Source of the DNA: a virus | Length of the DNA stretch: 45,104 bases | Reading direction: 5' to 3' (one strand) | IMG/VR virus record: IMGVR_UViG_3300031227_000099 | Span: 1 to 45,104 of that record | Shown here: in pieces, positions 1-37,732 of the stretch | How positions within the stretch are numbered: the first letter of the stretch is position 1 | Layout: every line of letters begins with the position of its first letter | Position numbers and translations under genes: made by a program | Notes under the pieces: model-generated | What the model saw: only the letters and a program-made list of their open reading frames with translations | The model's database searches: none | What the model was told of the DNA's origin: nothing

Positions 1-185
1 CCACCAACCTGCACGGGCGGTTACTCCTACACCCAAGGCCCTAAACAACACAGCCGCATCGTCATGATAGAGGGACGGACCCTCAAGGTCATCTGCCACA
101 CATGGCCCAGCGCACGGTATAACGGCTTGTTGTTTTATGGAGAGGTAGCAGCGCCCGCGACCATTCCGACCGGGACCACCCTTGT
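1..185. repeat. Terminal direct repeat, left copy (genome closure)
   Basis: These 185 bases recur at 44920-45104, differing only at base 127 (T here, G at 45046). Both copies read in the same frame of the same gene, so the window ends overlap and the genome is circular or circularly permuted, with a unit length of 44919 bp. The mismatch changes a leucine codon (TTG) to valine (GTG). An assembler overlap over a polymorphic site is the simplest reading; a true packaged terminal repeat would be expected to be identical. Confidence 0.95.
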
Positions 186-318
186 GGTTCCGAATCAGCT
201 GGTCATCAGCCCCCACGCTCAGACGCCACCAAACCCAGGCAATATATTTAGCCCGACCCAAATGACCCACGACTGGTTCGCATTGAGCGAAGACGGCGAG
301 ATGAGGCTCTACTACTGA
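1..318 (+). CDS. 3' part of a virion-module protein that wraps around the window ends
   Basis: The frame is open from base 1 and continues the gene that starts at 44428. Joined through the terminal repeat the gene encodes about 269 residues. This part supplies the C-terminal ~105 residues, ending in Leu-Tyr-Tyr with a TGA at 316-318 that overlaps the ATG of the next gene. No family is recognised; the position in the late operon next to virion genes suggests a structural or tail-associated role. The sequence from about 44690 to 490 is visibly richer in GC than its neighbours, so the C-terminal half may have been acquired by recombination. Confidence 0.8.
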   Translation, partial: PPTCTGGYSYTQGPKQHSRIVMIEGRTLKVICHTWPSARYNGLLFYGEVAAPATIPTGTTLVVPNQLVISPHAQTPPNPGNIFSPTQMTHDWFALSEDGEMRLYY

Positions 319-665
319 TGACCAACATCACACCCAAACCCGACGGCGCACGTCATTTGGTGGTCAATTCCGCCTACCTCACATGCGATGTACTGATCGA
401 CGCCTGCGCGTCTGGTGATGTTCGTATCATCGACGCAGCAGGCCATGAAGTAGGCCGTGGGCGTCTTGAAGTCATAACACCACAAGTGCTTCGGCCTAAT
501 TTTGATATGGACTCGAAAAAAAAGAATAAGCTAGAATCCAGACGCTCGATCTGCAATACATGCAGTGAAAGCAATGGGACAACTCGCTACACTGTGAAAT
601 GTAAAAACTGCGGGTGTGCGGGCCTGAGCCTGCTTAACGGCGTGTGCAAATTGGAGAAATGGTAA
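318..665 (+). CDS. Small zinc-ribbon-like late protein
   Basis: A 115-residue protein whose ATG overlaps the preceding stop (TGATG). The first ~55 residues are unremarkable. The C-terminal ~45 carry a cysteine cluster, CNTC then CKNCGC, and end in a C-x3-KW tail. This matches the general pattern of short phage zinc-ribbon proteins with two CxxC knuckles, the second as CxxCGC, and a cysteine followed by a terminal lysine-tryptophan. Zinc binding is inferred, not shown. The 5' half is GC-rich and the 3' half AT-rich with an A-run near 516, so the gene straddles a composition boundary near base 490. Its role is unknown; it lies within the late operon. Confidence 0.7.
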   Translation: MTNITPKPDGARHLVVNSAYLTCDVLIDACASGDVRIIDAAGHEVGRGRLEVITPQVLRPNFDMDSKKKNKLESRRSICNTCSESNGTTRYTVKCKNCGCAGLSLLNGVCKLEKW

Positions 666-1999
666 TGGCTAAGAAATTTACACCAGAAGAAAACAATGCG
701 ACGCGCAGGCGTCAGGTTGAGGCTCGCCGTGCTGAACAGCGTAGGGCAGAGGATGCCGCTGGCAATAAGCAGCTAGATACCCTGAAGAACAGGCGAGTTT
801 CAACAGCTGGCGAGTCTGAAACATCCAGAACTAGAATGGTCAGCGACCGCGCCATTGAGGCCGAGCGTGCCCGTCGTGCCGCCAAGACTGCACAGCAGAC
901 CAGCCTGAGCAATAATGGCTCTGCCCCTACTGGCACTGCGACTCCGCTAGTCCAGCAGAAATCACGCGGCGGCAATAGCTCCCGTTCTATCCCGATTATC
1001 CAGCGAGTGCGAAACGGTCGGCGTATTGGCTCTCCGGGCATCCAAGGGAACATACCTGTCGCTAGGCCGAGACCATCGCCGCCGCAGGAAGTGGCCCGCA
1101 ACGGCGGCCAAGCCCCTTCAGCGCCACAAGGTCCACAAGGTCCACAATCGCCTACCGAGCTTCGCCAAGACCCGTCAGAGCTTTCTCCTGAGATGTTCGA
1201 GGACGGCAAGCTGTATAAAAGCCCAGATGGCACAGTAACCAGATGGGACGACCAAGCGAAGCAGCAGACCCAGATGACTTGGGATGCTCAGAGCCGAACT
1301 TGGGCTGTGGCTACAGAGCAGCCTGACCCCATTGGCGATGCGGTTGAGATGGACAATGCTAGATACAGCGCCAAGCAGCAGCGAGAGATGGAGGAAATAA
1401 ACAACGCTGTTCAGGCGGTGCGCGGTCGCGATGACTGGTCGCAAGAGCAGAAAGACGAGGCAATTGCCAAGCTAGACGCTAAATACCTTGGAATTACGCA
1501 ATCATCAAAAGGCCAACAGCAAGAACCCGAATGGCCAAAAGAGCAGGGTGTTGGAAAAACTTGGAATGATAAGTCTGGCGCTTTGCTTACGAGAGACAGC
1601 AATGGCGATGTCAGGATGCTTGTGAAACCTGAGCCGCCACCAAAGCCCGAAGCGAGTGATAAGCAGGAAAGTATTTCCCGGTCTGATTATTCCAAGATGT
1701 ACATGAAGACCTATGAAGATATGACGGTGGAACAAAAAGATGGGTCAAAAACTTACCCCACAATGAAAGATGTTCAGCAGCGAATTTCAGATATTATGTC
1801 GGGACACCAAACCCTGTCCGGAACATCGTCTGACTCTGGGAAGTCTGGCGTAGTTGGACCGGGCGGCGAAAAGATGTCTGACATCCAGTACACTGCCAAC
1901 GCGCGAGGAATGACGGTAGATCAAGTCATCGTGCTAATAGCTAGAAAACACGGTATGATGGTGAGTCAGGTTCGTAAGCAATACGGCCTTGAGCCATAA
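665..1999 (+). CDS. Probable internal virion protein, low complexity
   Basis: A 444-residue hydrophilic protein. The start is placed at the ATG overlapping the preceding stop (TAATG), with GGAGA at 653-657 as ribosome site. The N-terminal ~110 residues are rich in Arg, Ala and Gln and look helical or coiled. A Pro-Gly-Gln stretch containing repeated QGP units follows around residues 155-165. The C-terminal ~45 residues look like a small folded helical domain. No enzymatic motif is visible. Its place just upstream of the giant 3407-residue gene, 24 bases away, suggests an internal or ejected virion protein; that is inferred from context only. Confidence 0.65.
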   Translation: MAKKFTPEENNATRRRQVEARRAEQRRAEDAAGNKQLDTLKNRRVSTAGESETSRTRMVSDRAIEAERARRAAKTAQQTSLSNNGSAPTGTATPLVQQKSRGGNSSRSIPIIQRVRNGRRIGSPGIQGNIPVARPRPSPPQEVARNGGQAPSAPQGPQGPQSPTELRQDPSELSPEMFEDGKLYKSPDGTVTRWDDQAKQQTQMTWDAQSRTWAVATEQPDPIGDAVEMDNARYSAKQQREMEEINNAVQAVRGRDDWSQEQKDEAIAKLDAKYLGITQSSKGQQQEPEWPKEQGVGKTWNDKSGALLTRDSNGDVRMLVKPEPPPKPEASDKQESISRSDYSKMYMKTYEDMTVEQKDGSKTYPTMKDVQQRISDIMSGHQTLSGTSSDSGKSGVVGPGGEKMSDIQYTANARGMTVDQVIVLIARKHGMMVSQVRKQYGLEP

Positions 2000-2023
2000 A
2001 CAACTCTAAAAACTGAGGTATAA

Positions 2024-5000
2024 ATGCCAGTTGATCTTTTTGATAATGGAACTTTACACAAGTCTTCTATCCCAAGAAAAGAAGCGGCTGCGCCAAACGG
2101 GCCGCCAAGAGATTTGCTGGCTTCAGATAGCCCTATTGCCGCGAAGCTTCAAGATAAAGACACCAAGCTTAAATTGCGTCTGGAACGTCTAGCTACAGAG
2201 CGTCCAGATATTGCCAGTAATTCTTCGTCGAATATCGCAGAAGCGCTCGCCATTCAAGAAGCTCGCCTTGACTCTAGATTCAAGGGCATGGCTCCTGCTG
2301 AGCAGGAAATTCTTGTCGAAAAGTACCGTAAAGAATTCGGCGCTATCACAGACAAGCAGAAGTTTGACCGCGAGTGGCACGAAGCTAGGAAAAACACATC
2401 TGAAACGCTGAGCAAAACTGAGCATGTGGTCAACGTCATTGCTGGCACTGCCGGGCGAATGATTCACGGGCCAATAGCGACTGCCGCTGATGCGATAAAC
2501 AATTCGCCATTGAATTACGGCTATGATTTTCCATCAATCCGCAAGATGGTTGAAGACGCTTACGATATAGGCGCTCCCATGAATCCTAAGTATTCCAATA
2601 GCATGTTGCTTACCAAGCTCCCTGCTGGCGCTACGTCGATGGCGATGTTTCTGTTGGCTGGCGGTGCTGGCGGTGCGAGTGCCGCCACGGTCATTGGCTC
2701 CGCCATCGGCGTTGACGAGGGCTATGCGACATCTCTGGAACTCGAAGACCCTTCTATACTTCAGACCGCTGGCCTTATTGCGGGCCATGGGGTGCTTGGT
2801 GCTACAGAAGGCTTGCCGTTCATGAATTTTCTGAGCAGGTTCAATAAAGGCACTGGCGGCGTGGCCGGTCGCGTCTTGGTGAGAAAGCTCACGAAGATTA
2901 ATCCGATATTTAATCCAGCTGCGAAAATTGGCGCTGGTGCAGTGCAGCAGGCTTTTGAAGAAGCGGCTCAGGAATACGGACAAAGCTTCTGGGGCCATGT
3001 TCTAGATGCCGCTGTTGACGGCGATGACAAACGCCCATTCTGGAACGTGGTGCGAGACGCAGGCAAAGAAGCTAGGGACGGAGCGACTGTCGGTGCTATT
3101 CTCGGCGGCTTAATGGGTGGTGCGGGCGGCGGCGTAGGTGGCAAGCGCGTACTAGAACGTGCCAATCGGGTCAATCATATTCGCGAGCTTCGCCAGCATA
3201 TCAATCTGCAAATGGACAATCTTGAACAAGGCGCAGTTGGCGAAGTTAAGGGCGAGTATGATGCTGTCAACCAAAGCCTTGACACTGCAGATAACCCCGA
3301 AGACTCTATTCAAGATTCTCGCACCAAAGAAGACCTTCAGACTTTCGACGGCCTTTCTGGCTGGGTGACAAATAATCCTGAAATCGCACAGCACCTAGCT
3401 GATACAGATTCGCCAAGCAGGACTGACTTTCTCGAAGTCCCCGGCAAATGGAGCGCCGAAGAGCGAGTAGAGCTAGCCGAGAACATTCGCATTATGACTT
3501 CTAGTGACGAAGAAGTTGACGCTATGCTAGAAGAAGCTGGCTTGAGCGAAGCTGAAATCGAATCGACTAGATGGCCGGTTGGCGAGCAGGCTATTGCTGG
3601 CGACGAAGAGGTTCTAGACGCTTCTCAGGTCAGCATTGACGGCGACCCTGACGAAGTGCTTGATCCTTCCGTTGTTTCGTCTGATGAAGAAGTGCTTGAG
3701 CCGCGCGACGTTACGCTTGATGGCGACGATGACATAATCGACCCGTCTGATGTGATGGTCGAAGATGATTACACTCCTGATGCTGACGGCGATGAAAAGA
3801 ATACCAAGAAAGGCAATTCCAATGAATCTGAATCAGAAAATACGAAATCAAATGGACGAAAAGACGGGAAATCTGATAGCTCAGGAACTGGAAAGGGTGG
3901 AGGCTCTTCACAAGATGGTGACGCCGGAGATGCCGGAGTACGTTCCGGTGATGAGAGCGATGACGGTGATGTACCGCCATCTGAATCTTCTTCTGGCGAC
4001 GGCGTGCGTGGAGATGGGCTATCCGCTGATTCGGACTCAGTGGAAGGACGGGGCGGCTCTGGAGGCGGTGGTGAGGGCGGTTCCGGAAGTGGTGACGGAG
4101 GCGTCGGCGTGGTATCAGACGAATCTTCAAATGATGCTGAATCATCAGATGAATCCGGAACATCTGTGGTGGAACCTGACGGGACTGGCGAGCCAAAAAC
4201 AGAAGGCCAAGTAGCCAACAATGGCAACTACGACTTGCGCGGCGTCGCGCCGATAAAGCTGACCAAGGGCGAGCGCAGGAAAGTTAACGCCCAAGTCACC
4301 GAAGCGATAGCTAGCGACAAAGGCATTGTCTCGCTGAACAAGAACGCGGCACGCCAATACACGGGCGAGGGCGGCTTATCGTCCGGAACCAAGGGCGCTC
4401 TAAATCAGCACTACACTGATTACCCCACAATTGAGTCGATGTTCAACGCTCTTGAAGATGCTGGCGTAAGAATGGAAAATTTGCTTGAGCCGTCTGTTGG
4501 CTCAGGTAACTTCGTGGGACATTTGCCTGATGCGCATTGGACCACTGTTGACATTGACAAGACTAATCACGAAGTTGTGAAGCATCTTTATCCCAACGCG
4601 ACCCATTACAACAATTCGTTTGAGGATTTCAGGTCCAAGAACTTCGATGTCATCATCTCGAACGTCCCGTTTCTTGAGACTCGCGGCGCTGGCCGTCGTA
4701 AAATCAGGAGCGACATTGGTACTATTCACGACTTTTACTTTGCTCATTCGCTTGATCTAGTGAAGCCCGATGGCGTCGTTGCGTTTATTACGTCCACTGG
4801 CACGATGGATAAGCTAGACAGCAAAATCCGCGAAGAAATCGTAAGCAAGGCCGATATTATCGGGGCTTTCAGGTTGCCGGGCGGTCACTTTGAGAAAAAC
4901 GCACACACCAGCGTAACTACCGACATCATCTTCATGCAGAAGCGACCCGAAGGCGTCGCGTCTCGCCCTGATTCGGCGGCTGTGAACGACCTGTTCATCA

Positions 5001-8000
5001 AGTCGGAAAAGACGGCTGATGATATCGCCATAAACAACATCTATACCGCTAATCCTGAATATGTTCTTGGCGAAATGAAGGCTGGGAAAAAAAAGCTGTA
5101 TGGCGGTCGCCCTGCTTACGAAGTAAGCGGCGAAGCTGACTTGAGCAAGATCAAGGTGAATTACAAGCCGTATGGCGCTATTCCTAAGAAAGAGGATGCG
5201 GGAGAGCCATCGCCCAAGACCAAGCCCAGACCTAGTGGCGGTGGCGGTGGCGGTGGCGGTGGCGGTGGCGGTGGCGGTGGCGGTGGCGGTGGCGGTACTA
5301 AAGCGCCCCGCTTGGCCCCTCAAGATTATCTGAAATTCACAGAATGGGCAGAATCCCAATCTTTGGAATGGTCATCATCCGACCAGCCGAAATACGCTGA
5401 AAGCATCAAGATAAAAGACGGCGTTGTTTACGTCGCGTCTCAGGAGCTTGAGTTTTCAGATGTCACTACAAAGGCCAAGATTTTCGAGCCGCTTGCTGGC
5501 GAGAATGCCGCGAAGATCATTGCTCTTGACAAGATTCTAAAGCTAGCTAACGAATTTCAAGAGAACCAAGACCCGGAAGTTACTCAGGCCGGTCTTGATG
5601 CAATCGCCAAATACCAAGAGGGCTACAATCTTCATCCATCAGCTGACAAATCGCTCAAAGATGTCTTTAAGAAAGCAGATGAAGATTTTTATCTAGCCGA
5701 GCTTTCTGCGCAATTCGATAAAGATTTTGTGCCTGCCGATTCCATGTCCAAAAAGGTTCGCCATTCCGGTGGCGGAAAAGTTAAAGCCAGCCGAAGTGAC
5801 GATGTGAAGCTTCGCGCCATGTCAGTCGAGAGTAACAAGGGTATTGTGACTTTCCCTGATGGCGATCTGGACGAGGAAAGAGACGCAAAAACACTTCTTT
5901 ACAATGGCTACTCTGTCTTTGGATATACCGATGACGGAAAGCTCATGCTGCAGAACGACATCTTGTATTACTCAGGGAACATCTACAACAAGATAGATAA
6001 TGTTGAAAAAAACAAATCCAAGGGTAAGTATCTAGAAGAGCTTGAGTCGCAGCAATTGAAGCTTCGCGATGTCATGCCCAAGCCCAAGAGTTTTTCAGAA
6101 ATCATAATCAAGGGTACTGAAAAATGGCTGCTGCCCGTTATCGCAAAAACACAATACAGGATTTTCGAGAGATTTGATGAGGCCAAGGGCATTACTGTAT
6201 ACGAAGGCGTCGGCCTTGCCGAACACGGAAAGGCTGCCAAGGTCGTAAAGAAGATTTGGAAGAAGCACTTGAACAATGAGGCGCTGACTTCTCACGCCGT
6301 CCTTGACAAAGGGCCGCCAGCCATCAAAGAGTCGATTCATGTCTACAAAGAGCGACTTACCAATTATGAAAAGATTGTCGATAGCATCTTGGCAAAGATC
6401 AAGCTGGAAATTTCCTCTGACCCTTCGTTGAAAAAAATGGCAGAAGATAGTTTTAATTCCAAATATCGGGCCTATGTCAAACCCGATTATGAAAAAGCGC
6501 AATACCTGATCCAGCCCGTGCTAGATGAAATCAATAAGAATTCAAAAATCAAGCTTCGGAAAAACCAAATCTCATGGACGGTTCAGGCTGTATATGAAGG
6601 CAAGGGCATTAATGCGCATGATGTTGGCGGCGGCAAAACCATGGCGGCGATAACAGTGGCCCGCGCTTTAAAACTTCGGGGACGTGCGCAAAAGCCAATG
6701 TTCGTCGTTCCAGCCAAGACGATAAAAAAATGGGTTCAGGAAACCAAAATGCTTTTCCCAAAAGCCAAGATCGTCGATCTTGGAAGCTTGGGAAAGACCG
6801 AGAGGCAGAAATCGCTTTATGATTTAGCCAACTCTGATGCTGACTATGTATTTATCTCCGTCGAAGGCTTTGGCAAGATCAAGCTGCCCGCTGAGGCCGA
6901 GGCCAAGTACATAACTGAATTGATGGACGAAAATGTTGACGATCCCGACGCGAAGGGCCGCGAAGAAGGTCTTAACGCAGAGAAGATCGAATCTTACGTT
7001 GACGCCCTGAAGAATGACGGCAGGGATACTCGGCTGACTTGGGATAAGCTTGGCGTTGACGCCATTTTTTCAGACGAGGCCCATTCTTTCAAGAACATTG
7101 GCGTTAGTGGCCAGATGGCTAAATTTGATTTAGGCAAGCCTATTACATTCAAGAAGGGCGGACAATCTTTGATGTCTAGCAGGTCTTATGATTTTAGATT
7201 TAAGACTGCCTACACGCTGGACAACAACAACAACAGCAATGTGTTTATGCTGACGGCGACGCCAACGCCAAATATGCCCATGGAAATCTATACCATGCTG
7301 CGCCATCTTGGCCGCGATGTTCTCGAAGAGTACGGAATCAAGACCGATAGGGAATTCGCGTCGATGTTTTTCAAATTGGGGAATGCTGTTCAGGCAGGAA
7401 AGTCAACGCCCAAAAGCGTTCTCAAGAGCATTGTAAATGCTGTCGAGCTTGGCGATCTGATGAATAGGTATATCGACCAGCTGAGCATGGAAGAGATGCC
7501 TTGGATTAAAATTCCAAAAGCAGTGGAGAGAAAGGTTGTCTTGGAATCATCGGCCGATCTAGATTCCGTAATGAACGATCTTCAGGATAGAAAAAAGAAT
7601 ATATCTATCCCCGCCAGAGAGGGCGGGGATGCTCTAGTTGCAATCTTTACTGACGGAAGAAGTGCGTCTAGCGATGTGAGGCTGTACGGTGCAAGTGACC
7701 ATGCCAATGTCGATATAGATGAACGAAGCTTTGACTCAGAAACGGACAAGGTTCAGTGGGTCATTGAAAATCTTCTCAAAAAATCAAAATCCGACCCTGA
7801 CGCCGGGCAGCTGGTGTTTATGGACACGCCGGGATATCAGCAGGTCAAGAAGGGTAAGATGACTGGGAATATCCATCAGGAAATCAAGTCAGCGCTCATT
7901 GCGGGCGGAATGCCTGCTAATCAAATTGCCATCATAAATGGGTCGCAAGTCACGGATGCGAACACCGGCAAAGAAACCTCATCTGGCTCTTCTGCCGAAA

Positions 8001-11000
8001 AGAAGAAGGCTGTTGCTGACGCCTACAACGATGGAAAAATCAAAGTTATTGTCGGCTCCACTCGCTCTATGGGCGAGGGCATGGACCTGCAGGTTACGAC
8101 AACAGATATTTATCATGTTGACATTCCATACACCCCCGGAGAAATTCGCCAAAGAAATGGCCGTGGTGTTCGCCCCGGCAATAGAAATGGCCATATCGAC
8201 ATCCATTATCTGATGATGTCCGGCACGTTCGACTCGCTATCCTTAAGCATCATGCAGAAAAAGGTCGGATGGAATCAGGCGCTTTGGAGCAAGGAAAGTC
8301 TGGATGAGATTTCCACCGAAGAAGAGATGCTTGCAGGTTCCGTTCCTAGCGACAAACAGATTTTGCTTGAGCTAGAAAAAGACCCTATTAAGAAGAAGAA
8401 GCTTCAAATTGAATTCGAAATAGATGGGCTAAAGAATTCGATTGATGCAATGCGACAGCAGCGCGGAACTCTAACCGCAAGAGCCGGTTTGAAAAAACTC
8501 GCAATAACTCATGCGGAAGAAAGCTTGAAGTCTAGGACTGAGAAGGTCGCTGGATTGAAGCCTGATGAGGAAATCAGCGATCTAGAGAAGCGGGCTGAAG
8601 TTTTCAAGAGCAGGAAAGACCACTGGATTAGAATGCGGGAGGTTTCTCGCGGGCAAATTTCAGAATCCAAAGAAGAGCTAGCTTCCCTGAATAAGCAGCT
8701 GGACGAGATGAATGATCTCATGGCGGCCTATGCTGACCAACTTGATGGCTTGCAGGAGCGATGGTTTGACTCTAATGGCTCCATGATTGTGACTCAGGCC
8801 GACATCGACGCCGAATCCAAAAAGAATGATGGCGACGGCGGCATGGTAACGCAAGGCTTTTCTCCGCAAAGCCAGAAGGGTACGAGCAAGAAGAAATCTA
8901 TGGGCCTAAAACCCATGGCTGGAAATATCGAATTGCCTACAGAAGCTGCTGGCGGCGCTGCTCCCATGAAGGGAAGGCCAGCACAGGCCAATGATGTTTT
9001 GAATCTAGTGCGAAAGCTCTGGAACATTCCGATTACAGGCAAGGCCACGCACCCAATGAAAAAAGCAGCGGGCTGGTACACGATGAATCTTGGGCATATT
9101 CGCATGAAAGATGTGCGAAGCATTGACACGGGGCTGCATGAGCTTGGCCATCATTGGGACAGGGAACTGGATAGATGGTCCGTGAACAATAAAAATCCAA
9201 AGGCGATCAAGGCCGAGCTTATGAGAATGGGCGAAGAGCTTTATGGCAGCAAGATTCCAGTCGGCGGCTACAAGAGCGAGGGTTTTGCTGAATTTGTTCG
9301 TGGGTTCTTTTTGACGGACAACATCGCAGAGCGTGCGCCTGAAACCTACAAGTGGTTCACTTCTGAATATCTCGTAAGCAACCCCAAAGAAGCCAAAAAA
9401 GTCAGGGAGCTTGGGCTGATGGTTATGGCGTGGCGAACGCAAGGCGCTGATGCCCGGCTAAAAGCATTCCGTTCCCCGATCAAGCAAGATTGGTCCGTAC
9501 GGGCCATCGCGGCAAGGGCAGCGTCATGGAAAGAAACCGCGTTGATGGATAAGTTCCTTCGCATTCTTCGAATAATGGAGAAGTCCGACGTCGATCTCGA
9601 TAATCTCGCACCTTCGGAAAATCCATACTCTTTGGCCACTGCATTTTCCATGTCTGCAGGCGGCAAGGCCAGACAGGGAGCATTGGTCGAAACAACCAAC
9701 ATTTGGGGCGACCGGACAGGCATTGGCCTGAGGGAGGCTCTAGAGCCGGTTTCCGCCATGGGCAACAAGGCGGTAGAAAACTGGCTCGACTATGTTGTCG
9801 CTAGCAGGGCAATCCTGCTGCACAGCAAGGGCATAAATCCGGGCGTTTCGATCAGTGATGCCAAGTTTATCGTCAACAAGCACAAGTCCGAGAAATTCGA
9901 CAAGGTGATTTCCGAAGTAACTGACTGGAGCCGCCGAAACATGAAGCTTCTTGTCACTGCTGGTTCTATGACAGAGCTAGATATGGAAAGAATCATTGAG
10001 GCAAATCCGATTTACATTCCCTTCTCTCGTCAATTTTCAAAAGACGAGCTTCGTGGTGGCGGTAGCGGTAGCATGTCCGGAAAAGTCAAGCACATGAAGG
10101 GAAGCGGTCGCGAGATTGATGACCCGATTGAGGCTCTGATTCGCCAGTCGGAAAAGATGATAACTTCCGCAATGCAGGCTCATATCGTCAAGGCATTGGT
10201 GCAGGTTTACGATGACAATCTGGGCAAAACATGGCGCTCGAAATCGAACATAGGGAGAATGATGGCCGAGGTTCCCGCGCCAAGGGAAGAAACTATTTTT
10301 GGCATGGACCAGATTAAAAAAGAGGTTTTAGAAAAAGCACTTTCTCTTGGCGCTGATCCAGACGCAGTGAAAGCCGCACTGGCTCTTGATGAATTCTGGG
10401 AAGAAAATATGTCCGTATGGACCAATTCTAGCCAGTACAAGGGTGGCGAGAAAATCATCGGACTCGAAGTGAATGGCGAAAAGCGGTGGTTCGAAATTGA
10501 AGATAAGCAATTCTTTCGAGCGCTAAACAAAATCAATGGCGAAACTGATATCAACGCTTTTGGCAAGTTTGCATCTAAAGTAACTGGCCTGCAAAGGCTT
10601 GGTGCTACCGGGCTGAATCCCGCATTTGGACTGATTAGAAATGCAAAGCGAGATTTTCTAACAGCCGGAGTGAATTCCAACTATGTAAAATACGGCCCTT
10701 TGTCTAGCTTGAAAGGCGTTGCTGACTCTATCTTGGGCGGCGAATTGCCAAATCGCTACAAGTCTATGGGTGTGGATTTGTCTGGCTGGATTGGGCAAGA
10801 CAAAGGCTCGCTCAAGGGAATTCGCGGAAAAACGCTATCTTCGACTGGCGGTCAAAAAGTAATGACCACGGTAAAGAACCCAATAGAAGCTCTTCGGGCA
10901 GTATTCGGCGTAACCGAAGCTGGCCCGCGCTTGGCTGAATTTGCAGGGGCGTATGAGTTTGGAATGGAGAAATACGGAAATTCTCGCGACGCTTCGATTC

Positions 11001-12247
11001 TTGCCACTATTGCCGGTAAAGACATTACTGTTAATTTCTCCCGATCTGGGGAGCTAACCCAGACTATTAATCGCTACATTTTGTTTTTCAATGCTGCGCT
11101 CCAGTCTATTGGGAAAACCGGCAGGACAATCAAGGCGCATCCCATCAGGACGCTTCGCCGTGGAGCGCAGTACCTGACAATGGCGGCGGTCTTGAGTTAT
11201 TACCGCAACCGCGATGAGCAGTGGTGGCAGGAGTTGCCACCGTCAGAGAAGTGGAATTACGTTCACTTCCAGATTCCAATGACGGATGTGGTTATGAGAG
11301 CGCCGCTGCCTTTCGAATTCGGTGCAATTTTCGGTGCTTTGCCAGTAGCTTTTCTGGAGAATTTCAGGAACCCCGGAACATTGGCCGAGGCTATCGAAGT
11401 GACCGGGGGCAATATGCTTCTGTCTTATATTCCAGCTTTCCTGAATCCCCTCTGGGAAGTAGCGAAAAACGAAACTTGGAATGGCAGCGACATTGTTCCT
11501 CAGCAGATTCTCGAAAACAGAGAACCTGCAGATCAATTCACATCGCGAACAGACTGGCTTTCAAAGGCTGCTGGCGATGTATTTGGCTATTCCCCCGCAC
11601 GAATCGAGCATCTTGCCAATGGCTACACAGGCAGCCTTTACGGTCGGGTAATGGGCGTTGGCGAAGCGATTTACGATCCAACTGTTTTCACCAAAGACCT
11701 TTCTAGCTTGCCAATTGTGGGGACTATGTTCCTGAGAAAAGGCACATCTAGGATTGTTGGCGATTTTTACCGTCGAATGTCGGACTTGAAGAGAAAGTCA
11801 GGCTCAAAAAGAGCTTCGGTTGAAGAAATTGGAGAGCTTGCGGCCATTCAGTCACTGAGCCGTAAGCTTAGCGATAAATGGGGCGAGTCTAGATCAATCC
11901 ATATCGACGAAGAGCTTTCTTCCAAGCAAAAGCAAGAGCTTGCGGCTGTTATTTACGAGGATGTCAAGAAATCTATTCGCGAGCATAATTCCCAATCTAA
12001 AGGCTGGGAAGATAGGGGCATTGGGAAACTGGCCATTGACGCCACGAATCCAAGCGCCGAGCCGGACGAAGTGCGGGAAGCGGTAAAAATGCTTCGCTCT
12101 AGCGGGCTTGGTTTCCATGAGTTACTAGAAACCATGGCCAGTGAATCTGTTTTGCGTGGAAGAAGCGCGCGAGTGTGGCACAACAAAAAGCTTACGAATT
12201 ACGGTATGCGTGTCATTGCGCTCAAGAAAGAATTTGGCGACAAATAG
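2024..12247 (+). CDS. Giant DarB-like polyvalent protein: methyltransferase, SF2 helicase, zincin
   Basis: A 3407-residue multidomain protein; GAGG at 2015-2018 precedes the ATG. In order: a helical N-terminus; glycine/alanine-rich hydrophobic segments near residues 194-270 and 352-373; an acidic, Ser/Gly-rich linker about 490-730; a class I N6-adenine-type methyltransferase about 740-980 (motif I LEPSVGSGN at 821-829, motif IV NVPF at 880-883); 20 consecutive glycines at 1072-1091; an SF2/SNF2 helicase about 1510-2090 (Walker A VGGGKT 1534-1539, DEAH 1684-1687, TATP 1744-1747, motif VI QRNGRGVR 2043-2050); a coiled coil about 2118-2250; a zincin with HELGHH at 2372-2377 and a likely third ligand Glu2423; and a C-terminal ~950 residues resembling large polyvalent-protein domains, with an LPD38-like part near 2860-3100. 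Methyltransferase plus helicase in one giant phage protein is the DarB arrangement of phage P1, which is packaged and protects injected DNA from type I restriction. By analogy it is probably ejected; this is inferred. Confidence 0.88.
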   Translation: MPVDLFDNGTLHKSSIPRKEAAAPNGPPRDLLASDSPIAAKLQDKDTKLKLRLERLATERPDIASNSSSNIAEALAIQEARLDSRFKGMAPAEQEILVEKYRKEFGAITDKQKFDREWHEARKNTSETLSKTEHVVNVIAGTAGRMIHGPIATAADAINNSPLNYGYDFPSIRKMVEDAYDIGAPMNPKYSNSMLLTKLPAGATSMAMFLLAGGAGGASAATVIGSAIGVDEGYATSLELEDPSILQTAGLIAGHGVLGATEGLPFMNFLSRFNKGTGGVAGRVLVRKLTKINPIFNPAAKIGAGAVQQAFEEAAQEYGQSFWGHVLDAAVDGDDKRPFWNVVRDAGKEARDGATVGAILGGLMGGAGGGVGGKRVLERANRVNHIRELRQHINLQMDNLEQGAVGEVKGEYDAVNQSLDTADNPEDSIQDSRTKEDLQTFDGLSGWVTNNPEIAQHLADTDSPSRTDFLEVPGKWSAEERVELAENIRIMTSSDEEVDAMLEEAGLSEAEIESTRWPVGEQAIAGDEEVLDASQVSIDGDPDEVLDPSVVSSDEEVLEPRDVTLDGDDDIIDPSDVMVEDDYTPDADGDEKNTKKGNSNESESENTKSNGRKDGKSDSSGTGKGGGSSQDGDAGDAGVRSGDESDDGDVPPSESSSGDGVRGDGLSADSDSVEGRGGSGGGGEGGSGSGDGGVGVVSDESSNDAESSDESGTSVVEPDGTGEPKTEGQVANNGNYDLRGVAPIKLTKGERRKVNAQVTEAIASDKGIVSLNKNAARQYTGEGGLSSGTKGALNQHYTDYPTIESMFNALEDAGVRMENLLEPSVGSGNFVGHLPDAHWTTVDIDKTNHEVVKHLYPNATHYNNSFEDFRSKNFDVIISNVPFLETRGAGRRKIRSDIGTIHDFYFAHSLDLVKPDGVVAFITSTGTMDKLDSKIREEIVSKADIIGAFRLPGGHFEKNAHTSVTTDIIFMQKRPEGVASRPDSAAVNDLFIKSEKTADDIAINNIYTANPEYVLGEMKAGKKKLYGGRPAYEVSGEADLSKIKVNYKPYGAIPKKEDAGEPSPKTKPRPSGGGGGGGGGGGGGGGGGGGGTKAPRLAPQDYLKFTEWAESQSLEWSSSDQPKYAESIKIKDGVVYVASQELEFSDVTTKAKIFEPLAGENAAKIIALDKILKLANEFQENQDPEVTQAGLDAIAKYQEGYNLHPSADKSLKDVFKKADEDFYLAELSAQFDKDFVPADSMSKKVRHSGGGKVKASRSDDVKLRAMSVESNKGIVTFPDGDLDEERDAKTLLYNGYSVFGYTDDGKLMLQNDILYYSGNIYNKIDNVEKNKSKGKYLEELESQQLKLRDVMPKPKSFSEIIIKGTEKWLLPVIAKTQYRIFERFDEAKGITVYEGVGLAEHGKAAKVVKKIWKKHLNNEALTSHAVLDKGPPAIKESIHVYKERLTNYEKIVDSILAKIKLEISSDPSLKKMAEDSFNSKYRAYVKPDYEKAQYLIQPVLDEINKNSKIKLRKNQISWTVQAVYEGKGINAHDVGGGKTMAAITVARALKLRGRAQKPMFVVPAKTIKKWVQETKMLFPKAKIVDLGSLGKTERQKSLYDLANSDADYVFISVEGFGKIKLPAEAEAKYITELMDENVDDPDAKGREEGLNAEKIESYVDALKNDGRDTRLTWDKLGVDAIFSDEAHSFKNIGVSGQMAKFDLGKPITFKKGGQSLMSSRSYDFRFKTAYTLDNNNNSNVFMLTATPTPNMPMEIYTMLRHLGRDVLEEYGIKTDREFASMFFKLGNAVQAGKSTPKSVLKSIVNAVELGDLMNRYIDQLSMEEMPWIKIPKAVERKVVLESSADLDSVMNDLQDRKKNISIPAREGGDALVAIFTDGRSASSDVRLYGASDHANVDIDERSFDSETDKVQWVIENLLKKSKSDPDAGQLVFMDTPGYQQVKKGKMTGNIHQEIKSALIAGGMPANQIAIINGSQVTDANTGKETSSGSSAEKKKAVADAYNDGKIKVIVGSTRSMGEGMDLQVTTTDIYHVDIPYTPGEIRQRNGRGVRPGNRNGHIDIHYLMMSGTFDSLSLSIMQKKVGWNQALWSKESLDEISTEEEMLAGSVPSDKQILLELEKDPIKKKKLQIEFEIDGLKNSIDAMRQQRGTLTARAGLKKLAITHAEESLKSRTEKVAGLKPDEEISDLEKRAEVFKSRKDHWIRMREVSRGQISESKEELASLNKQLDEMNDLMAAYADQLDGLQERWFDSNGSMIVTQADIDAESKKNDGDGGMVTQGFSPQSQKGTSKKKSMGLKPMAGNIELPTEAAGGAAPMKGRPAQANDVLNLVRKLWNIPITGKATHPMKKAAGWYTMNLGHIRMKDVRSIDTGLHELGHHWDRELDRWSVNNKNPKAIKAELMRMGEELYGSKIPVGGYKSEGFAEFVRGFFLTDNIAERAPETYKWFTSEYLVSNPKEAKKVRELGLMVMAWRTQGADARLKAFRSPIKQDWSVRAIAARAASWKETALMDKFLRILRIMEKSDVDLDNLAPSENPYSLATAFSMSAGGKARQGALVETTNIWGDRTGIGLREALEPVSAMGNKAVENWLDYVVASRAILLHSKGINPGVSISDAKFIVNKHKSEKFDKVISEVTDWSRRNMKLLVTAGSMTELDMERIIEANPIYIPFSRQFSKDELRGGGSGSMSGKVKHMKGSGREIDDPIEALIRQSEKMITSAMQAHIVKALVQVYDDNLGKTWRSKSNIGRMMAEVPAPREETIFGMDQIKKEVLEKALSLGADPDAVKAALALDEFWEENMSVWTNSSQYKGGEKIIGLEVNGEKRWFEIEDKQFFRALNKINGETDINAFGKFASKVTGLQRLGATGLNPAFGLIRNAKRDFLTAGVNSNYVKYGPLSSLKGVADSILGGELPNRYKSMGVDLSGWIGQDKGSLKGIRGKTLSSTGGQKVMTTVKNPIEALRAVFGVTEAGPRLAEFAGAYEFGMEKYGNSRDASILATIAGKDITVNFSRSGELTQTINRYILFFNAALQSIGKTGRTIKAHPIRTLRRGAQYLTMAAVLSYYRNRDEQWWQELPPSEKWNYVHFQIPMTDVVMRAPLPFEFGAIFGALPVAFLENFRNPGTLAEAIEVTGGNMLLSYIPAFLNPLWEVAKNETWNGSDIVPQQILENREPADQFTSRTDWLSKAAGDVFGYSPARIEHLANGYTGSLYGRVMGVGEAIYDPTVFTKDLSSLPIVGTMFLRKGTSRIVGDFYRRMSDLKRKSGSKRASVEEIGELAAIQSLSRKLSDKWGESRSIHIDEELSSKQKQELAAVIYEDVKKSIREHNSQSKGWEDRGIGKLAIDATNPSAEPDEVREAVKMLRSSGLGFHELLETMASESVLRGRSARVWHNKKLTNYGMRVIALKKEFGDK
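5237..5296 (+). repeat. (GGYGGC)n hexanucleotide microsatellite encoding 20 glycines
   Basis: Ten perfect GGC-GGT hexanucleotide units (60 bases) encode 20 consecutive glycines between the methyltransferase and the helicase half of the giant protein. Gain or loss of whole units changes only the linker length and keeps the frame. The perfection of the repeat is unusual in a gene whose neighbouring glycine codons vary, and it suggests recent slippage. Confidence 0.95.
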
Positions 12248-12277
12248 TAAAATATGCACAAAATCGACTGTTTGGCA

Positions 12278-12305
12278 TTGACATGGCTTTTTTGCACGTT
12301 AGTAT
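12278..12305 (+). promoter_or_regulatory. Candidate sigma70-type promoter for the DNA-metabolism module
   Basis: A perfect TTGACA at 12278-12283 is followed after 16 bases by TAGTAT at 12300-12305. It lies in the 101-base gap after the giant late gene and 44 bases before the helix-turn-helix gene that opens the DNA-metabolism module. The -35 element is perfect and the -10 element matches four of six positions. Confidence 0.5.
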
Positions 12306-12348
12306 TGTATTCGCACTTGGGAAATCAAATAATTATGGAGATCGAACA

Positions 12349-12561
12349 ATGTCTGAGACTGACAAAAAATATCTAACACCAAACGAAGTTGGCCACAGGC
12401 TTGGCATTCATCGCAACACTGTTACGGCCATGATAAAAGATGGGCGTTTTCCGGGTTCGTTTGTGATCGGGACCAGATGGCGCGTCCCTGAATCCGCCTA
12501 CGATTCGTTCGTCAGAAACCAAGGTTTCCCGCCAAAGAAAAACGAAGAATCTCCTGAATGA
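12349..12561 (+). CDS. Small excisionase/MerR-like helix-turn-helix protein
   Basis: A 70-residue protein; GGAG at 12337-12340 lies 8 bases before the ATG. Residues about 8-50 follow the helix-turn-helix pattern of excisionase-type (HTH_17) proteins: YLTPNEVGHRLGIH, then RNTVTAMIKDGRFPG, then a WRVPE wing strand before a closing helix. Such proteins bind DNA as transcription or recombination directionality factors. As the first gene of the module it may regulate early expression, or work with the serine recombinase encoded at 22878-23630. Which of these applies cannot be decided from sequence. Confidence 0.8.
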   Translation: MSETDKKYLTPNEVGHRLGIHRNTVTAMIKDGRFPGSFVIGTRWRVPESAYDSFVRNQGFPPKKNEESPE

Positions 12562-12701
12562 AAAACGAAGAGAAGCAGCGTAGGCATATTTTCGAATCGA
12601 CCATTGTTATCGTTGTTCTTTTCTTCGGTTTGGTATTTGCGATTGTGCCTATTATCGCAAGATTTATCTGGAATGTTTCTAAGTTAATTGAAGGTTGGTG
12701 A
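12558..12701 (+). CDS. 47-residue single-pass membrane protein
   Basis: The start ATG overlaps the stop of the helix-turn-helix gene (ATGA). The first ~13 residues are charged (KNEEKQRRH). A hydrophobic stretch of about 24 residues follows (STIVIVVLFFGLVFAIVPIIA), then a short cationic-aromatic tail ending in GW. This is a convincing single transmembrane segment. The function is unknown; small phage membrane proteins include holin-like and superinfection factors, but nothing here decides. Translational coupling on both sides supports expression. Confidence 0.65.
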   Translation: MKNEEKQRRHIFESTIVIVVLFFGLVFAIVPIIARFIWNVSKLIEGW

Positions 12702-12702
12702 A

Positions 12703-13788
12703 ATGGAAAAATCTCTAATAACGCACAGCAGTAGCGTCTGCTACAAAACATGCCCAAGAAAATACTTCTATCAATACATTATGACGATTCGAAAGTCGGT
12801 CGAATCTACCCCGTTAAGAATAGGAAAGGCGGTCCATCTTGGGCTTGACCTTTGGGCTGTCGGGACCGACCCGCAAGAGTCGATCACTCGCGCCGTTGCC
12901 AGCTATGAAGTCTTGCCGGAATGGGCAAATACAGAAGAGCTTGTCTATCAATGGATGATCGAACGGGAAAAAGTGGCTAGGCTGCTGTCGGGATACTTCT
13001 GGCGATGGGGTGAGGTTGAAGAGAAGATCATTCAATCAGAGCGAGCTTTTGAGGTTGATCTATTAAACCCCGATACAGGGCGTCCATCTTCCAATTACAA
13101 CCTAGCTGGAAGAATCGACAAGATTATCGAGACTGCAGGGAAAAGGCTTGCTATTAAAGAGCATAAGACCTGCAGCGAAGATATTTCTAACGATTCTGAC
13201 TATTGGCTCAGGCTAAGAATTGACCAGCAAATCTCTCAATACATGACTGCTGCTCGCAGGCTCGGCTATGACGTTGAGACGGTCATTTATGATGTCATAA
13301 GAAAGCCAACGATTGGCCCTCTTACGATACCGCTTCTGGACGAGGACGGACTGAAAATCGTCGTTGACGAAAGCGGCGAGCGAGTCTACTTAGACGCCAA
13401 AGGCAAATCAGAACCCAAGCCAAGGCAGTCTGGCGATTCGAAAAAAGGATGGTCACTCCAAACACGCAAGCAAACACCGCAAGAGTATGGCGAGCGACTG
13501 ACAGACGATATCGCAATTCGCCCAGAATACTATTACGCACAAAGAGAAATCCCCCGCCTTAACTCTGATCTAGAAGAGTTTGAATATGAAGCTTGGGACT
13601 TGCAAAAGCAAATTCAAGAAGCAAAAAAACATAACAGATGGTACAGAAACACAGCTGCTTGCCTAAAGCCATACAGGTGCGAGTATCTAGACATCTGCCA
13701 CAACAGCGCAGACTTGAGCCAAGGCGTCCCATCTGGTTATGTGCAGATCAACGTAGCTCACCCAGAGCTTGAAGAAGAAGAAGATTAA
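12703..13788 (+). CDS. PD-(D/E)XK exonuclease with Cas4/AddB-like Fe-S cysteines
   Basis: A 361-residue protein starting one base after the preceding stop. The N-terminus reads SxxxxCYKTCPRKYFYQY, the usual opening of RecB-family PD-(D/E)XK nucleases. The active-site series is present: His45 in GKAVHLG, Asp139 in GRIDKI and Glu153-His-Lys155 (the ExK motif). A C-terminal cluster CLKPYRCEYLDIC, together with an N-terminal Cys, matches the four-cysteine iron-sulphur site of Cas4 and AddB nucleases. The likely job is DNA end resection, feeding the Sak4-like ATPase and SSB-like protein encoded next. The domain call is firm; the exact polarity is unknown. Confidence 0.88.
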   Translation: MEKSLITHSSSVCYKTCPRKYFYQYIMTIRKSVESTPLRIGKAVHLGLDLWAVGTDPQESITRAVASYEVLPEWANTEELVYQWMIEREKVARLLSGYFWRWGEVEEKIIQSERAFEVDLLNPDTGRPSSNYNLAGRIDKIIETAGKRLAIKEHKTCSEDISNDSDYWLRLRIDQQISQYMTAARRLGYDVETVIYDVIRKPTIGPLTIPLLDEDGLKIVVDESGERVYLDAKGKSEPKPRQSGDSKKGWSLQTRKQTPQEYGERLTDDIAIRPEYYYAQREIPRLNSDLEEFEYEAWDLQKQIQEAKKHNRWYRNTAACLKPYRCEYLDICHNSADLSQGVPSGYVQINVAHPELEEEED

Positions 13789-15470: not shown

Positions 15471-15541
15471 CTCCCGGTGCGACACCATGATGAAGGTGGC
15501 GTGGGTGAATACCATTCCTGCAACCCACACACCGGGACTTT

Positions 15542-17784: not shown

Positions 17785-18813
17785 ATGTGGACATGGAAAG
17801 AAATTCAGACTTGGAAAGTCGAAGTCTCGAAAGTCTTTGGCGTCAAATTTAAGACGTACACGAACGGAAACGGTATGTCGGTCAGAGTGGCGACGACCGC
17901 GACTGTCAGTCTGTCTGCCAGCATCGGCGACAGGTCCAGCATCGGCTACAGTTCCAGCATCGGCTACAGTTCCAGCATCGGCGACAGGTCCAGCATCGGC
18001 GACAGGACCAGCATCGGCTCAGGGACCAGCATCGGCGACAGGACCAGCATCGGCTCAGGGTCCAGCATCGGCGACAGGACCAGCATCGGCTCAGGGGCCA
18101 GCATCGGCTACGAGGCCAGCATCGGCGACAGGGCCAGCATCAGCTCAGGGGCCAGCATCGGCGACAGGGCCAGCATCGGCTCAGGGGCCAGCATCGGCTA
18201 CAGGTCCAGCATCGGCTCAGGGTCCAGCATCGGCGACAGGACCAGCATCGACTCAGGGGCCAGCATCGGCTACAGGTCCAGCATCGGCGACAGGACCAGC
18301 ATCGGCTCAGGGACCAGCATCGGCTCAGGGGCCAGCATCGGCTACAGGTCCAGCATCGGCGACAGGACCAGCATCAGCGACAGGACCAGCATCGGCTCAG
18401 GGGCCAGCATCGGCGACAGGACCAGCATCGGCTACAGGACCAGCATCGGCGACAGGGCCAGCATCGGCTACGAGGCCAGCATCGGCTACGAGGCCAGCAT
18501 CGGCTGCGAGGCCAGCATCGGCGACAGGTCCAGCATCGGCGACAGGACCAGCATCGACAAATATGATTGGTGGATTACCACAGGGCCACAAGGCTCACGA
18601 CACGCTCCCCTGACAGCCGTGTGGTCGGCAGAACACGGCCTGCGGTGGTGGGTTGGATGCCAAGAGGGTATCAGCACCGACGATCTACGCAAGCGTGTCA
18701 AAAGCGACCATAAGGGCGAGCACTTCGACGACTACATGCACGTAATTCAGATGGTTGAGACGCACCCCGGATTGCTGCGGGCGAAGGAAGCAGGGGAGGT
18801 GGGGGATGAGTGA
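17785..18813 (+). CDS. Left-handed beta-helix hexapeptide-repeat protein (36 repeats)
   Basis: A 342-residue protein. Residues 1-44 form an N-terminal cap (MWTWKEIQTWKVEV...). Residues 45-260 are 36 uninterrupted hexapeptides of the form [AST]-S-I-G-x-x, exactly the isoleucine-glycine pattern of left-handed parallel beta-helix proteins, predicting about 12 coils. The variable pair is mostly DR, SG, YR, YS or YE. A C-terminal ~80-residue domain follows (WWITTGPQGSRHAPLTAVW..., WWVGCQEG). Unlike hexapeptide acyltransferases there is no inserted loop or catalytic His, so a structural or ligand-binding rod is more likely than an enzyme. The surrounding composition is GC-richer, without CTAG from about 17550 to 19413, suggesting acquisition. 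The function is unknown. Confidence 0.82.
   Translation: MWTWKEIQTWKVEVSKVFGVKFKTYTNGNGMSVRVATTATVSLSASIGDRSSIGYSSSIGYSSSIGDRSSIGDRTSIGSGTSIGDRTSIGSGSSIGDRTSIGSGASIGYEASIGDRASISSGASIGDRASIGSGASIGYRSSIGSGSSIGDRTSIDSGASIGYRSSIGDRTSIGSGTSIGSGASIGYRSSIGDRTSISDRTSIGSGASIGDRTSIGYRTSIGDRASIGYEASIGYEASIGCEASIGDRSSIGDRTSIDKYDWWITTGPQGSRHAPLTAVWSAEHGLRWWVGCQEGISTDDLRKRVKSDHKGEHFDDYMHVIQMVETHPGLLRAKEAGEVGDE
17917..18564 (+). repeat. Tandem array of 36 degenerate 18-bp units
   Basis: Thirty-six contiguous 18-base units with core CCAGCATCGGC, no indels and variation concentrated in the last two codons and the first base. The units fall into a few types (GACAGG, TCAGGG, TACAGG, TACGAG, TACAGT) that recur in mixed order, as expected from unequal recombination between units. 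The array lies entirely within the hexapeptide-repeat gene. Confidence 0.97.
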
Positions 18814-18988
18814 GCCATACCGACAGCTATCGCCAAAAGATTTTGACGATCTTTATGTTCTTCGCCAACAAATGCCAGACGTACCTGTTCGAGACTTCGC
18901 AGAGGAAGTGTACCGAGATTTCAACGGATACGACTTAAAGCAAATCCGAGAAGCATTACGAAAAATAGACAAGGGACATGAAGTATGA
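18806..18988 (+). CDS. 60-residue protein of unknown function
   Basis: The ATG at 18806 overlaps the end of the hexapeptide gene by 8 bases and is preceded by GGGGAGGTGGGGG. The protein is acidic and helical (SPKDFDDLYVLRQQMPDVPVRDFAEEVYRDFNGYD, broken here only for description) with no cysteines or membrane segment. Its stop overlaps the start of the PAPS-reductase-like gene (ATGA), so the three genes are translationally coupled and were probably acquired as a unit. No family is recognised. Confidence 0.65.
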   Translation: MSEPYRQLSPKDFDDLYVLRQQMPDVPVRDFAEEVYRDFNGYDLKQIREALRKIDKGHEV

Positions 18989-19824
18989 AACACATTGTGG
19001 GATTTAGCGGCGGTATTGATAGTCAGGCATGTGCCCGATGGGTGCTTAATCGTTACCCCAAAGAAGACGTCGTGCTGTTGAACAGCGACGCCGGGGGGAA
19101 TGAGCATCCCCTGACGAGTGAATTCATCGACTGGTACAGCTGCCACATTCATCCAGTCATTGTCGTGCAAGCAACGGTCGCAGACATGGCGGGCACAGCA
19201 AAGGGGAAAATCGCCGAGCTTGGCTTATCCCCTGATGACATTCTCACGTTTGACCTCATGACAATCCTCAAGGGCCGTTGGCCGTCGCCAAAAAGACAAT
19301 TTTGCACGGAACACTTGAAGCTAAGGCCAGCGCTTAGATGGATGGAGTTGGCATTTCCTGCCGGAGATTATTGCCGCTATGCGGGCGTGCGAAATGATGA
19401 AAGCCGTCGGCGTGCTAGCCGCAAGGCCGTGGAATGGGATGATTTTTTCGACTGCGATCTGTTCCATCCAATCATCGATTGGACCAAGCAAATGTGCTTT
19501 GACTATGTCAAGGCCCACGACGGGAAGATCAATGAGCTTTACACGCTTGGATTTAATCGCGTTGGGTGTGCGCCTTGCATCAATTCCAACAAAGCCGATA
19601 TCTTGGCTTGGGCGACGAGGTTTCCTGAAATGATCGACAAAGTCAGAGCATGGGAGAAAACCACCGGCCGCACTTTTTATGCACCTATGGTGCCACGCAA
19701 AAAGATCAACTGGATCGACGAGGTTGTCGAGTGGTCGAAAACCACGCGGGGCGGCAAGCAATATGGGCTTCATGTTTTACATGAGCCAGATTCATGCGAA
19801 TCAAAATTCGGACTTTGTGAGTAA
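18985..19824 (+). CDS. PAPS reductase/ATP-pyrophosphatase (PP-loop) family enzyme
   Basis: A 279-residue protein. The N-terminal PP-loop SGGIDS (residues 8-13) is the signature of the adenine-nucleotide alpha-hydrolase superfamily. YAGVRNDESRRR in the middle and a late GFNRVGCAPCINSNK segment with paired cysteines match phage-encoded phosphoadenylylsulfate-reductase-like proteins and their DndC relatives. Family enzymes adenylate a substrate or transfer sulphur; in phages the physiological substrate is unknown. It is coupled to the 60-residue gene upstream. No DndD or DndE homologue is present, so DNA phosphorothioation is not supported. Confidence 0.83.
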   Translation: MKHIVGFSGGIDSQACARWVLNRYPKEDVVLLNSDAGGNEHPLTSEFIDWYSCHIHPVIVVQATVADMAGTAKGKIAELGLSPDDILTFDLMTILKGRWPSPKRQFCTEHLKLRPALRWMELAFPAGDYCRYAGVRNDESRRRASRKAVEWDDFFDCDLFHPIIDWTKQMCFDYVKAHDGKINELYTLGFNRVGCAPCINSNKADILAWATRFPEMIDKVRAWEKTTGRTFYAPMVPRKKINWIDEVVEWSKTTRGGKQYGLHVLHEPDSCESKFGLCE

Positions 19825-25599: not shown

Positions 25600-25665
25600 C
25601 GTATCCTGCTTTCGCATTGGCGTTTTTCAAACTAGACTGCCCGACGTGGACAGACAATTCAACCC

Positions 25666-37613: not shown

Positions 37614-37687
37614 TGGCAAGTAGCTCAATTGGATAGAGCAGTGGACTACGAATCCACAGGTCGCAGGTTCGAGTCCTGCCCATGACT
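37614..37687 (+). tRNA. tRNA-Arg(ACG)-like gene with defective acceptor stem
   Basis: The D arm (GCTC/GAGC), anticodon arm (GTGGA-CTACGAA-TCCAC, anticodon ACG at 37648-37650) and T arm (GCAGG-TTCGAGT-CCTGC) are all perfect. The 5' acceptor strand TGGCAAG has no full partner: after the T arm the sequence is CCATGAC. A 3' strand CTTGCCA would be expected, so about four bases (CTTG) look deleted. It may be a decayed tRNA, or one repaired after transcription. End coordinates are therefore approximate. Confidence 0.65.
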
Positions 37688-37732
37688 GCTTTGAATCGGA
37701 TAATAATCGGCGAATAATTGGAGAATATCCCT

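Follow-up and report, generated by a model that had tools for sequence, protein, structure and literature searches.

Polyvalent proteins, DarB and the N4 virion RNA polymerase

Large phage proteins in which a DNA methylase-helicase dyad, a zincin and LPDs share one chain have been described as polyvalent proteins (Iyer et al. 2017, PMC5512222), and the same paper predicts that the translocase assists in methylating the injected DNA. DarB of phage P1 is an injected antirestriction protein with a methyltransferase-SF2 pair; how it counteracts restriction is undefined, and tests with plasmid-borne darB suffer from a confounding DNA effect (PMC11109961). JC1 gp69, a DarB-like giant of a Bcep22-like phage, has been detected through 51 unique peptides in virions purified on CsCl (PMC9144972). 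Among the open-access papers containing the terms, LPD38 is named solely in the 2017 class description (PMC5512222), and neither that paper nor the other open-access papers searched mention LPD38 as the carrier of an ejection protein or a link between LPD38 and the N4 polymerase.

The virion RNA polymerase (vRNAP) of phage N4, gp50, is a second kind of giant ejected protein. A low-complexity linker of 100 aa separates its membrane-type N-terminus from the polymerase, which is followed by C1, a domain with an HExxH motif, and by C2, a large domain that is all-alpha; in the cryo-EM study, C2 is described as a new fold whose role is unknown (PMC12633501). The encapsidation of this polymerase needs its C-terminal region (PMC5512222).

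Genome setting of the giant gene

The window, i.e., the whole 45,104-nt stretch of viral DNA analyzed here, ends in a 185-nt direct terminal repeat (99% identical; positions 1-185 and 44920-45104), which suggests a complete genome or true terminal redundancy. The earlier note had assigned the virus to the short-tailed phages, and this assignment is strengthened by matches to an SU10-type portal and adaptor, with no tape-measure or sheath gene recognized in the structural region. The relevant features are as follows.

30665-32449, plus strand: SU10-like portal protein (Pfam SU10_portal, 1.7e-6, just below cut-off)
41534-42358, plus strand: SU10-like adaptor (Pfam SU10_adaptor, 2.3e-6, above cut-off)
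318-665, plus strand: small 115-aa ORF, which may be the first of an ejection-type trio (gene order alone)
644-1999, plus strand: low-complexity protein of 451 aa directly 5' of the giant gene, possible second ejection protein (gene order alone)

The virion block, comprising the terminase, the SU10-like portal, a capsid candidate and the SU10-like adaptor, reaches the end of the contig and, via the terminal repeat, continues into positions 64-1999, after which the giant gene begins. Its position, following the structural block across the contig ends, fits that of the last gene of an ejection trio; no homologs of the two upstream ORFs were found, nor any similarity to known ejection proteins, and the trio is therefore proposed from position only. 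Directly 3' of the giant gene lies an HTH/excisionase-like gene, followed by genes for an exonuclease, Sak4, a helicase and a primase-polymerase. Such a gene order is in keeping with a short-tailed phage whose virion block ends with the giant gene.

Several other features of the window are recorded here in their own right. A tRNA-Gly gene is located at 15541. A tRNA-like sequence at 37615-37690 is 76% identical to it over 59 nt, and ARAGORN does not call it; this sequence may be what is left of a tRNA or, given the serine recombinase at 22878-23630, may serve as an attachment site. A 342-aa protein encoded at 17785-18813 (plus strand) contains about 30 tandem 18-nt units that encode hexapeptide (left-handed beta-helix) repeats (Pfam Hexapep, 7.8e-32); at 23636-25617 (minus strand), a CobS-like AAA ATPase adjoins a DUF7192 protein. 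The ORF at 39827-41518, which is possibly a tail-fibre gene, holds a 92-nt direct repeat (77% identical; 40465-40556 and 40969-41060).

A PAPS-reductase-family protein is encoded at 18985-19824 (plus strand), with PADLOC matches to SspD-like (2.7e-15) and BrxP (1.6e-13) profiles. Genes of this family are common in phages, Bcep22-like phages included, and the protein may act in the sulfur modification of DNA or in evading it; the SspD-like match puts in question the claim that no other antirestriction gene is visible in the window.

Domain architecture and conservation

The giant gene (2024-12247, plus strand) is a single open frame with an ATG start and a GAGG box just 5' of it; it encodes 3407 aa and occupies 22.7% of the 45,104-nt virus record. 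The previously described one-frame ORF of about 23% of the genome is thus intact, and every motif named for it is present. Its parts are listed below.

2024-12247, plus strand: whole ORF, giant polyvalent protein (residues 590-3401 align with contig L104 at 46% identity)
2024-3463, plus strand: fast-evolving N-terminal region, residues 1-480, with hydrophobic Gly/Ala segments
3464-4228, plus strand: acidic Ser/Gly low-complexity linker, residues 481-735 (by composition)
4259-5137, plus strand: gamma-class N6-adenine-type methyltransferase domain, residues 746-1038 (Eco57I; 61% identity to L104)
4484-4510, plus strand: methyltransferase motif I, LEPSVGSGN
4658-4672, plus strand: methyltransferase motif IV, SNVPF
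5235-5300, plus strand: poly-glycine linker at the methyltransferase/helicase boundary, residues ~1070-1095 (GTGGCG repeat)
6431-8296, plus strand: SF2/SNF2 translocase, residues 1470-2091 (SNF2-rel, ResIII, Helicase_C; motifs I, II, III, V and VI)
8987-9463, plus strand: zincin metallopeptidase-like domain, residues 2322-2480 (Pfam ATLF, 5.3e-4, below cut-off)
9137-9151, plus strand: HELGH zinc-binding motif, residues 2372-2376, conserved in relatives
9278-9292, plus strand: downstream glutamates EGFAE, residues 2419-2423, conserved in relatives
9542-11941, plus strand: all-alpha carrier core, residues 2507-3306 (alignment A1; AlphaFold2 model)
11219-11665, plus strand: LPD38 inside the carrier core, residues 3066-3214 (Pfam PF18857, 1.5e-24, above cut-off)

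The motifs begin at residues 821 (LEPSVGSGN) and 879 (SNVPF) in the methyltransferase, at 1534 (VGGGKT), 1683 (SDEAH), 1744 (TATP) and 2043 (QRNGRGVR) in the SF2 part, and at 2372 (HELGHH) and 2419 (EGFAE, to 2423) in the zincin. The segment-wise profile search suggested in the earlier note is borne out for the SF2 families (SNF2-rel, ResIII, Helicase_C) and for LPD38, all above the Pfam cut-off; Eco57I falls just below it (9.3e-5 with the whole protein and 2.4e-5 with the segment alone), as does, more weakly, the lethal-factor-type ATLF match of the zincin segment. In PHROGs, the protein matches 'DNA methyltransferase' (3e-133) and 'DarB-like antirestriction' (2.9e-126), and neither the nuclease domain nor the target-recognition domain of type I/III/ISP restriction-modification enzymes was recognized by Pfam in the stretches scanned, although a missing profile match does not exclude one.

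The decisive residues are retained in relatives. In the methyltransferase, E822, G828, N880, P882 and F883 occur in 100% of 89 relatives, while position 881 of motif IV is V in 32% of them, as it is in P1 DarB. In the translocase (82 sequences), the Walker A G-K-T is found in 98%, D1684 in 100%, E1685 in 98%, H1687 in 89%, and R2047 and R2050 in 100%; in the zincin, H2372, E2373, H2376, E2419 and E2423 (HExxH plus E-x-x-x-E) are present in 100% of 25 relatives. Therefore, these are domains under selection and not chance motifs. Moreover, the array from the methyltransferase to the C-terminus stands in one chain on contig L104, and two relatives in Campylobacterales MAGs (L188, L189) carry the full architecture. 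P0001 as a lone query against viral_contigs returned no relative, and relatives were retrieved through domain alignments alone; at the DNA level, the first 8 kb matched nothing among phage records. For the N-terminal region (residues 1-480), phage records yielded no relative and other sources only marginal matches.

A gamma-class adenine methyltransferase joined to an SF2/SNF2 translocase, both with intact motifs, makes the protein DarB-like, in agreement with the earlier reading of the pair, which the PHROGs matches and the conserved active sites also favor. The unrelated enzymatic domains (methyltransferase, SF2, zincin) together with LPD38 in one large protein place it among the polyvalent proteins, and its C-terminal homology to LPD38 (1.5e-24) among the LPD38 carriers. 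The polyvalent architecture described earlier is thereby borne out, but the LPD38 carrier at the C-terminus, which makes up roughly a quarter of the chain, had been overlooked.

Comparison with described relatives refines this placement. VvAW1 gp01 of a Vibrio phage (annotated DarB-like antirestriction, 3640 aa) has the methyltransferase, SF2 translocase, zincin and LPD38-type core in the same order and an ejection-gene position; BA3_0002 of a Thalassomonas phage shares the methyltransferase, zincin and core, but its SF2 domain is not recognized. Both are just 22-32% identical to the giant protein, and their N-terminal regions are not alignable with it. The Bcep22-like proteins BcepIL02 gp70 and JC1 gp69 likewise combine methyltransferase, helicase and LPD38 core in a podovirus, but they measure 4.5-4.7 thousand aa, have another N-terminus and contain an HExxH that the zincin profile does not match. 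P1 DarB has the methyltransferase-SF2 pair, the NVPF motif IV and the QRNGRGxR motif VI, with segments 22-36% identical to the giant protein; it differs in having no zincin or carrier match (the P1 zincin lies in a separate protein, DdrB) and in belonging to a myovirus, where packaging depends on DarA/Hdf (PMC12810830).

The earlier note had also proposed that hydrophobic parts carry the protein across the envelope. Hydrophobic Gly/Ala segments are found at residues 194-224 and 353-371, and another at 3089-3111 in the C-terminus; the number of N-terminal segments is reached by 8.8% of composition-shuffled controls and is not clearly above chance, and the hydrophobic helix of some other cores is not hydrophobic in the core of this protein. 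The signal for envelope crossing by these parts is accordingly weak here.

The proposed C-terminal carrier core and its relatives

The C-terminal region of about 800 aa also occurs as a stand-alone protein in Pelagibacter phages, at the position of T7 gp16. The core is homologous to HTVC034P gp44 (26% identity) and Lederberg_8 of Pelagibacter podophages, stand-alone proteins of 1,229-1,254 aa that have the size of T7 gp16 and whose genes follow, by one position, that of an 'internal virion protein', in the gp14-15-16 order of T7. It is also homologous to VvAW1 gp01 and BA3_0002, which are encoded next but one after a P22 gp7-type 'DNA ejection' gene, and the LPD38 core is further present in an annotated virion structural protein. 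The AlphaFold2 model of the zincin and core (residues 2322-3330) has a pLDDT of 78 and a pTM of 0.73; a PDB fold search with it gave nothing below E 1e-3, its weak matches to PPEP-1/PPEP-3 and lethal factor fit the zincin, and the core profile found no convincing match among PDB sequences.

Other ejection proteins were also considered as homologs of the core. For T7 gp16 and P22 gp16/gp20, hhalign P values of 0.11-0.6 correspond to no detectable sequence similarity, and homology to T7 gp15, P22 gp7, N4 gp51 or gp53 is not supported. The giant protein may work like T7 gp16 or P22 gp16-gp20 without being a member of their families.

These gene positions, together with the detection of JC1 gp69 in virions by mass spectrometry (PMC9144972), support the earlier proposal that the protein is packaged and ejected, which is considered likely; JC1 gp69 is of the BcepIL02 type, and BcepIL02 gp70 carries LPD38. 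The same evidence bears on the idea that the protein is made in the cell and stays unpackaged, as an intracellular methyltransferase-helicase or a superinfection defence. The HTH/excisionase-like and replication genes that directly follow the giant gene would suit such a protein, as would helicase profile matches to DISARM and BREX proteins, but the presence of the LPD38 core in ejection-position genes and in a virion structural protein, and the abundance of a relative in virions (PMC9144972), make it very improbable.

The core is combined with varied partners. Among the 91 core-bearing proteins listed, some of which lie on incomplete contigs, 72 showed no match to either the cargo profiles or the zincin, 12 carried the zincin only, and others add a methyltransferase with or without a translocase; these counts hold for the matches listed and show variety and not frequency. 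In all 28 proteins with both parts, the zincin immediately precedes the core on its N-terminal side, whatever lies upstream, with a gap of 22-149 aa (median 29.5), compared with a helicase-zincin spacing of 212-517 aa. Conversely, relatives of the cargo with a methyltransferase identity of 47-58% (most 52-58%) end in or neighbor LPD39, LPD1 or PBECR3, and on contig L142 the carrier is encoded by a separate gene. Cargo and carrier have therefore been exchanged independently, and the zincin has moved with the carrier.

Some of these loci deserve a separate description. On L142, the methyltransferase-helicase giant occupies positions 2-8980 and the LPD38 carrier 9447-12953, with a frame start about 470 nt downstream, a layout that may represent a natural gene fission of cargo and carrier. 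In a Sulfurospirillum MAG (L184, 8042-17016), a gene for a 2137-aa methyltransferase-helicase is overlapped by a gene for an 859-aa protein with a PBECR3 RNase-like domain, an alternative carrier partner. NVP1232O_28 of Vibrio phage 1.232.O (L010, 1775-11653) has the same core; its SF2 helicase precedes the methyltransferase, and a GNAT-like domain is added.

Relation of the core to C2 of the N4 polymerase

N4 gp50 resembles the giant protein in general layout, with its membrane-type N-terminus, linker, enzyme, HExxH and all-alpha C2 (PMC12633501); its cargo is an RNA polymerase instead, and the sequence similarity of C2 is marginal. In both proteins, an HExxH zincin directly precedes the large all-alpha region. 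In hhalign, the core and C2 (alignments A1 and A4) matched with P = 3.5e-4; a larger N4 alignment gave 5e-4 and 0.018, and the addition of 77 core sequences weakened the score to 0.02. Because the score fell as sequences were added, the N4 link rests on several moderate lines taken jointly. An iterated core HMM found two N4-like C-termini at 2.5e-4 and 1.7e-3, where the best reversed decoy scored 0.41. Moreover, a model of N4 C2 (pLDDT 80.6, pTM 0.78), searched without the zincin by Foldseek against viral models, gave N4-type polymerases as its top matches, after which polyvalent proteins predominated (E from 3.6e-5; prob 0.94-1.00 at ranks 18-27).

A shared helix-rich composition, with no homology and with the LPD38 core as an unrelated packaging domain, would account for part of these results, namely the TM-scores of just 0.17-0.26 between N4 C2 and LPD-type proteins and the hhalign probability of 2-37%. 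It is harder to reconcile with an alignment register that is identical in every sequence comparison, with contig L157, where the core and N4 profiles both match at one place, and with the Foldseek ranking, in which 10 of the matches at ranks 18-50 recur in the top 50 of the core itself and tape-measure proteins reach a prob of only 0.06. A purely compositional resemblance is thus rather unlikely, and the carrier core is probably homologous to C2 of the N4 vRNAP; as the TM-scores are low (about 0.2), the homology is called probable and not proven.

Proposed role of the giant protein

It appears fairly likely that the giant protein is a cargo-carrier ejection protein. Its C-terminal module, made up of the zincin and the all-alpha LPD38 core, would be the delivery part, which would bring about packaging of the protein in the head and passage of the chain down the short tail, either together with the DNA or immediately ahead of it, a role comparable to that of T7 gp16 and of the C-terminal region of the N4 vRNAP. 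The N-terminal region would anchor at the envelope or pass it. The cargo, a gamma-class adenine methyltransferase and an SNF2-type translocase on flexible linkers, would act on the entering phage DNA and most likely shield it against type I-like restriction, a function proposed by analogy with P1 DarB. That methylation provides this protection is plausible; no target-recognition domain was identified in the giant protein.

The translocase might instead serve mainly in genome entry, with the ejected protein pulling or ratcheting the DNA in, as the host or N4 RNA polymerase does, and with a secondary methyltransferase. An SNF2-type motor is indeed fused to an ejection-type carrier, and T7 and N4 are thought to draw in their genomes by a DNA-tracking enzyme (PMC12633501), but the same pair occurs in plasmids and in P1 DarB, where the known phenotype is antirestriction, and many carriers have no recognized motor; such a use is quite improbable.

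The earlier note had further proposed that the ejected protein is cut by its own zincin, whereupon the freed methyltransferase-helicase modifies the DNA. The fully conserved active site would agree with such a cut, as would the constant place of the zincin between cargo and carrier, a sensible spot for a releasing cleavage, and the processing of P1 DdrB, with its C-terminal zincin, before packaging (PMC5512222). However, the N4 vRNAP, whose C-terminus shares the zincin-plus-alpha layout, enters the virion without being processed (PMC5512222), and the recombinant full-length N4 enzyme purifies without signs of degradation (PMC12633501); the zincin-core proteins with no recognized cargo have nothing obvious to release, and no cleavage site could be identified in the giant protein. 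Self-cleavage is left unsupported by these comparisons and is unlikely.

Implications for the class and for N4

The class of DarB-like polyvalent podovirus proteins is known and common, and the giant protein itself adds one more large phage-injected antirestriction candidate to it. What is added here is the carrier, an exchangeable ejection module that LPD38 proteins and the N4 polymerase probably share. We lean towards the view that the zincin with the LPD38 core and C1-C2 of N4 represent a single, exchangeable module by which short-tailed phages deliver proteins: Pelagibacter phages have it without cargo at the gp16 position, and elsewhere it is loaded with a methyltransferase-translocase, an RNA polymerase or some other cargo. 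If this is true, the N4 C-terminal domain, described as a 'new fold' without an assigned role, would be the general ejection carrier. The carrier result would thus give LPD38 and this N4 domain a likely function in packaging and ejection, and it predicts which giant phage proteins enter cells, and by which part.
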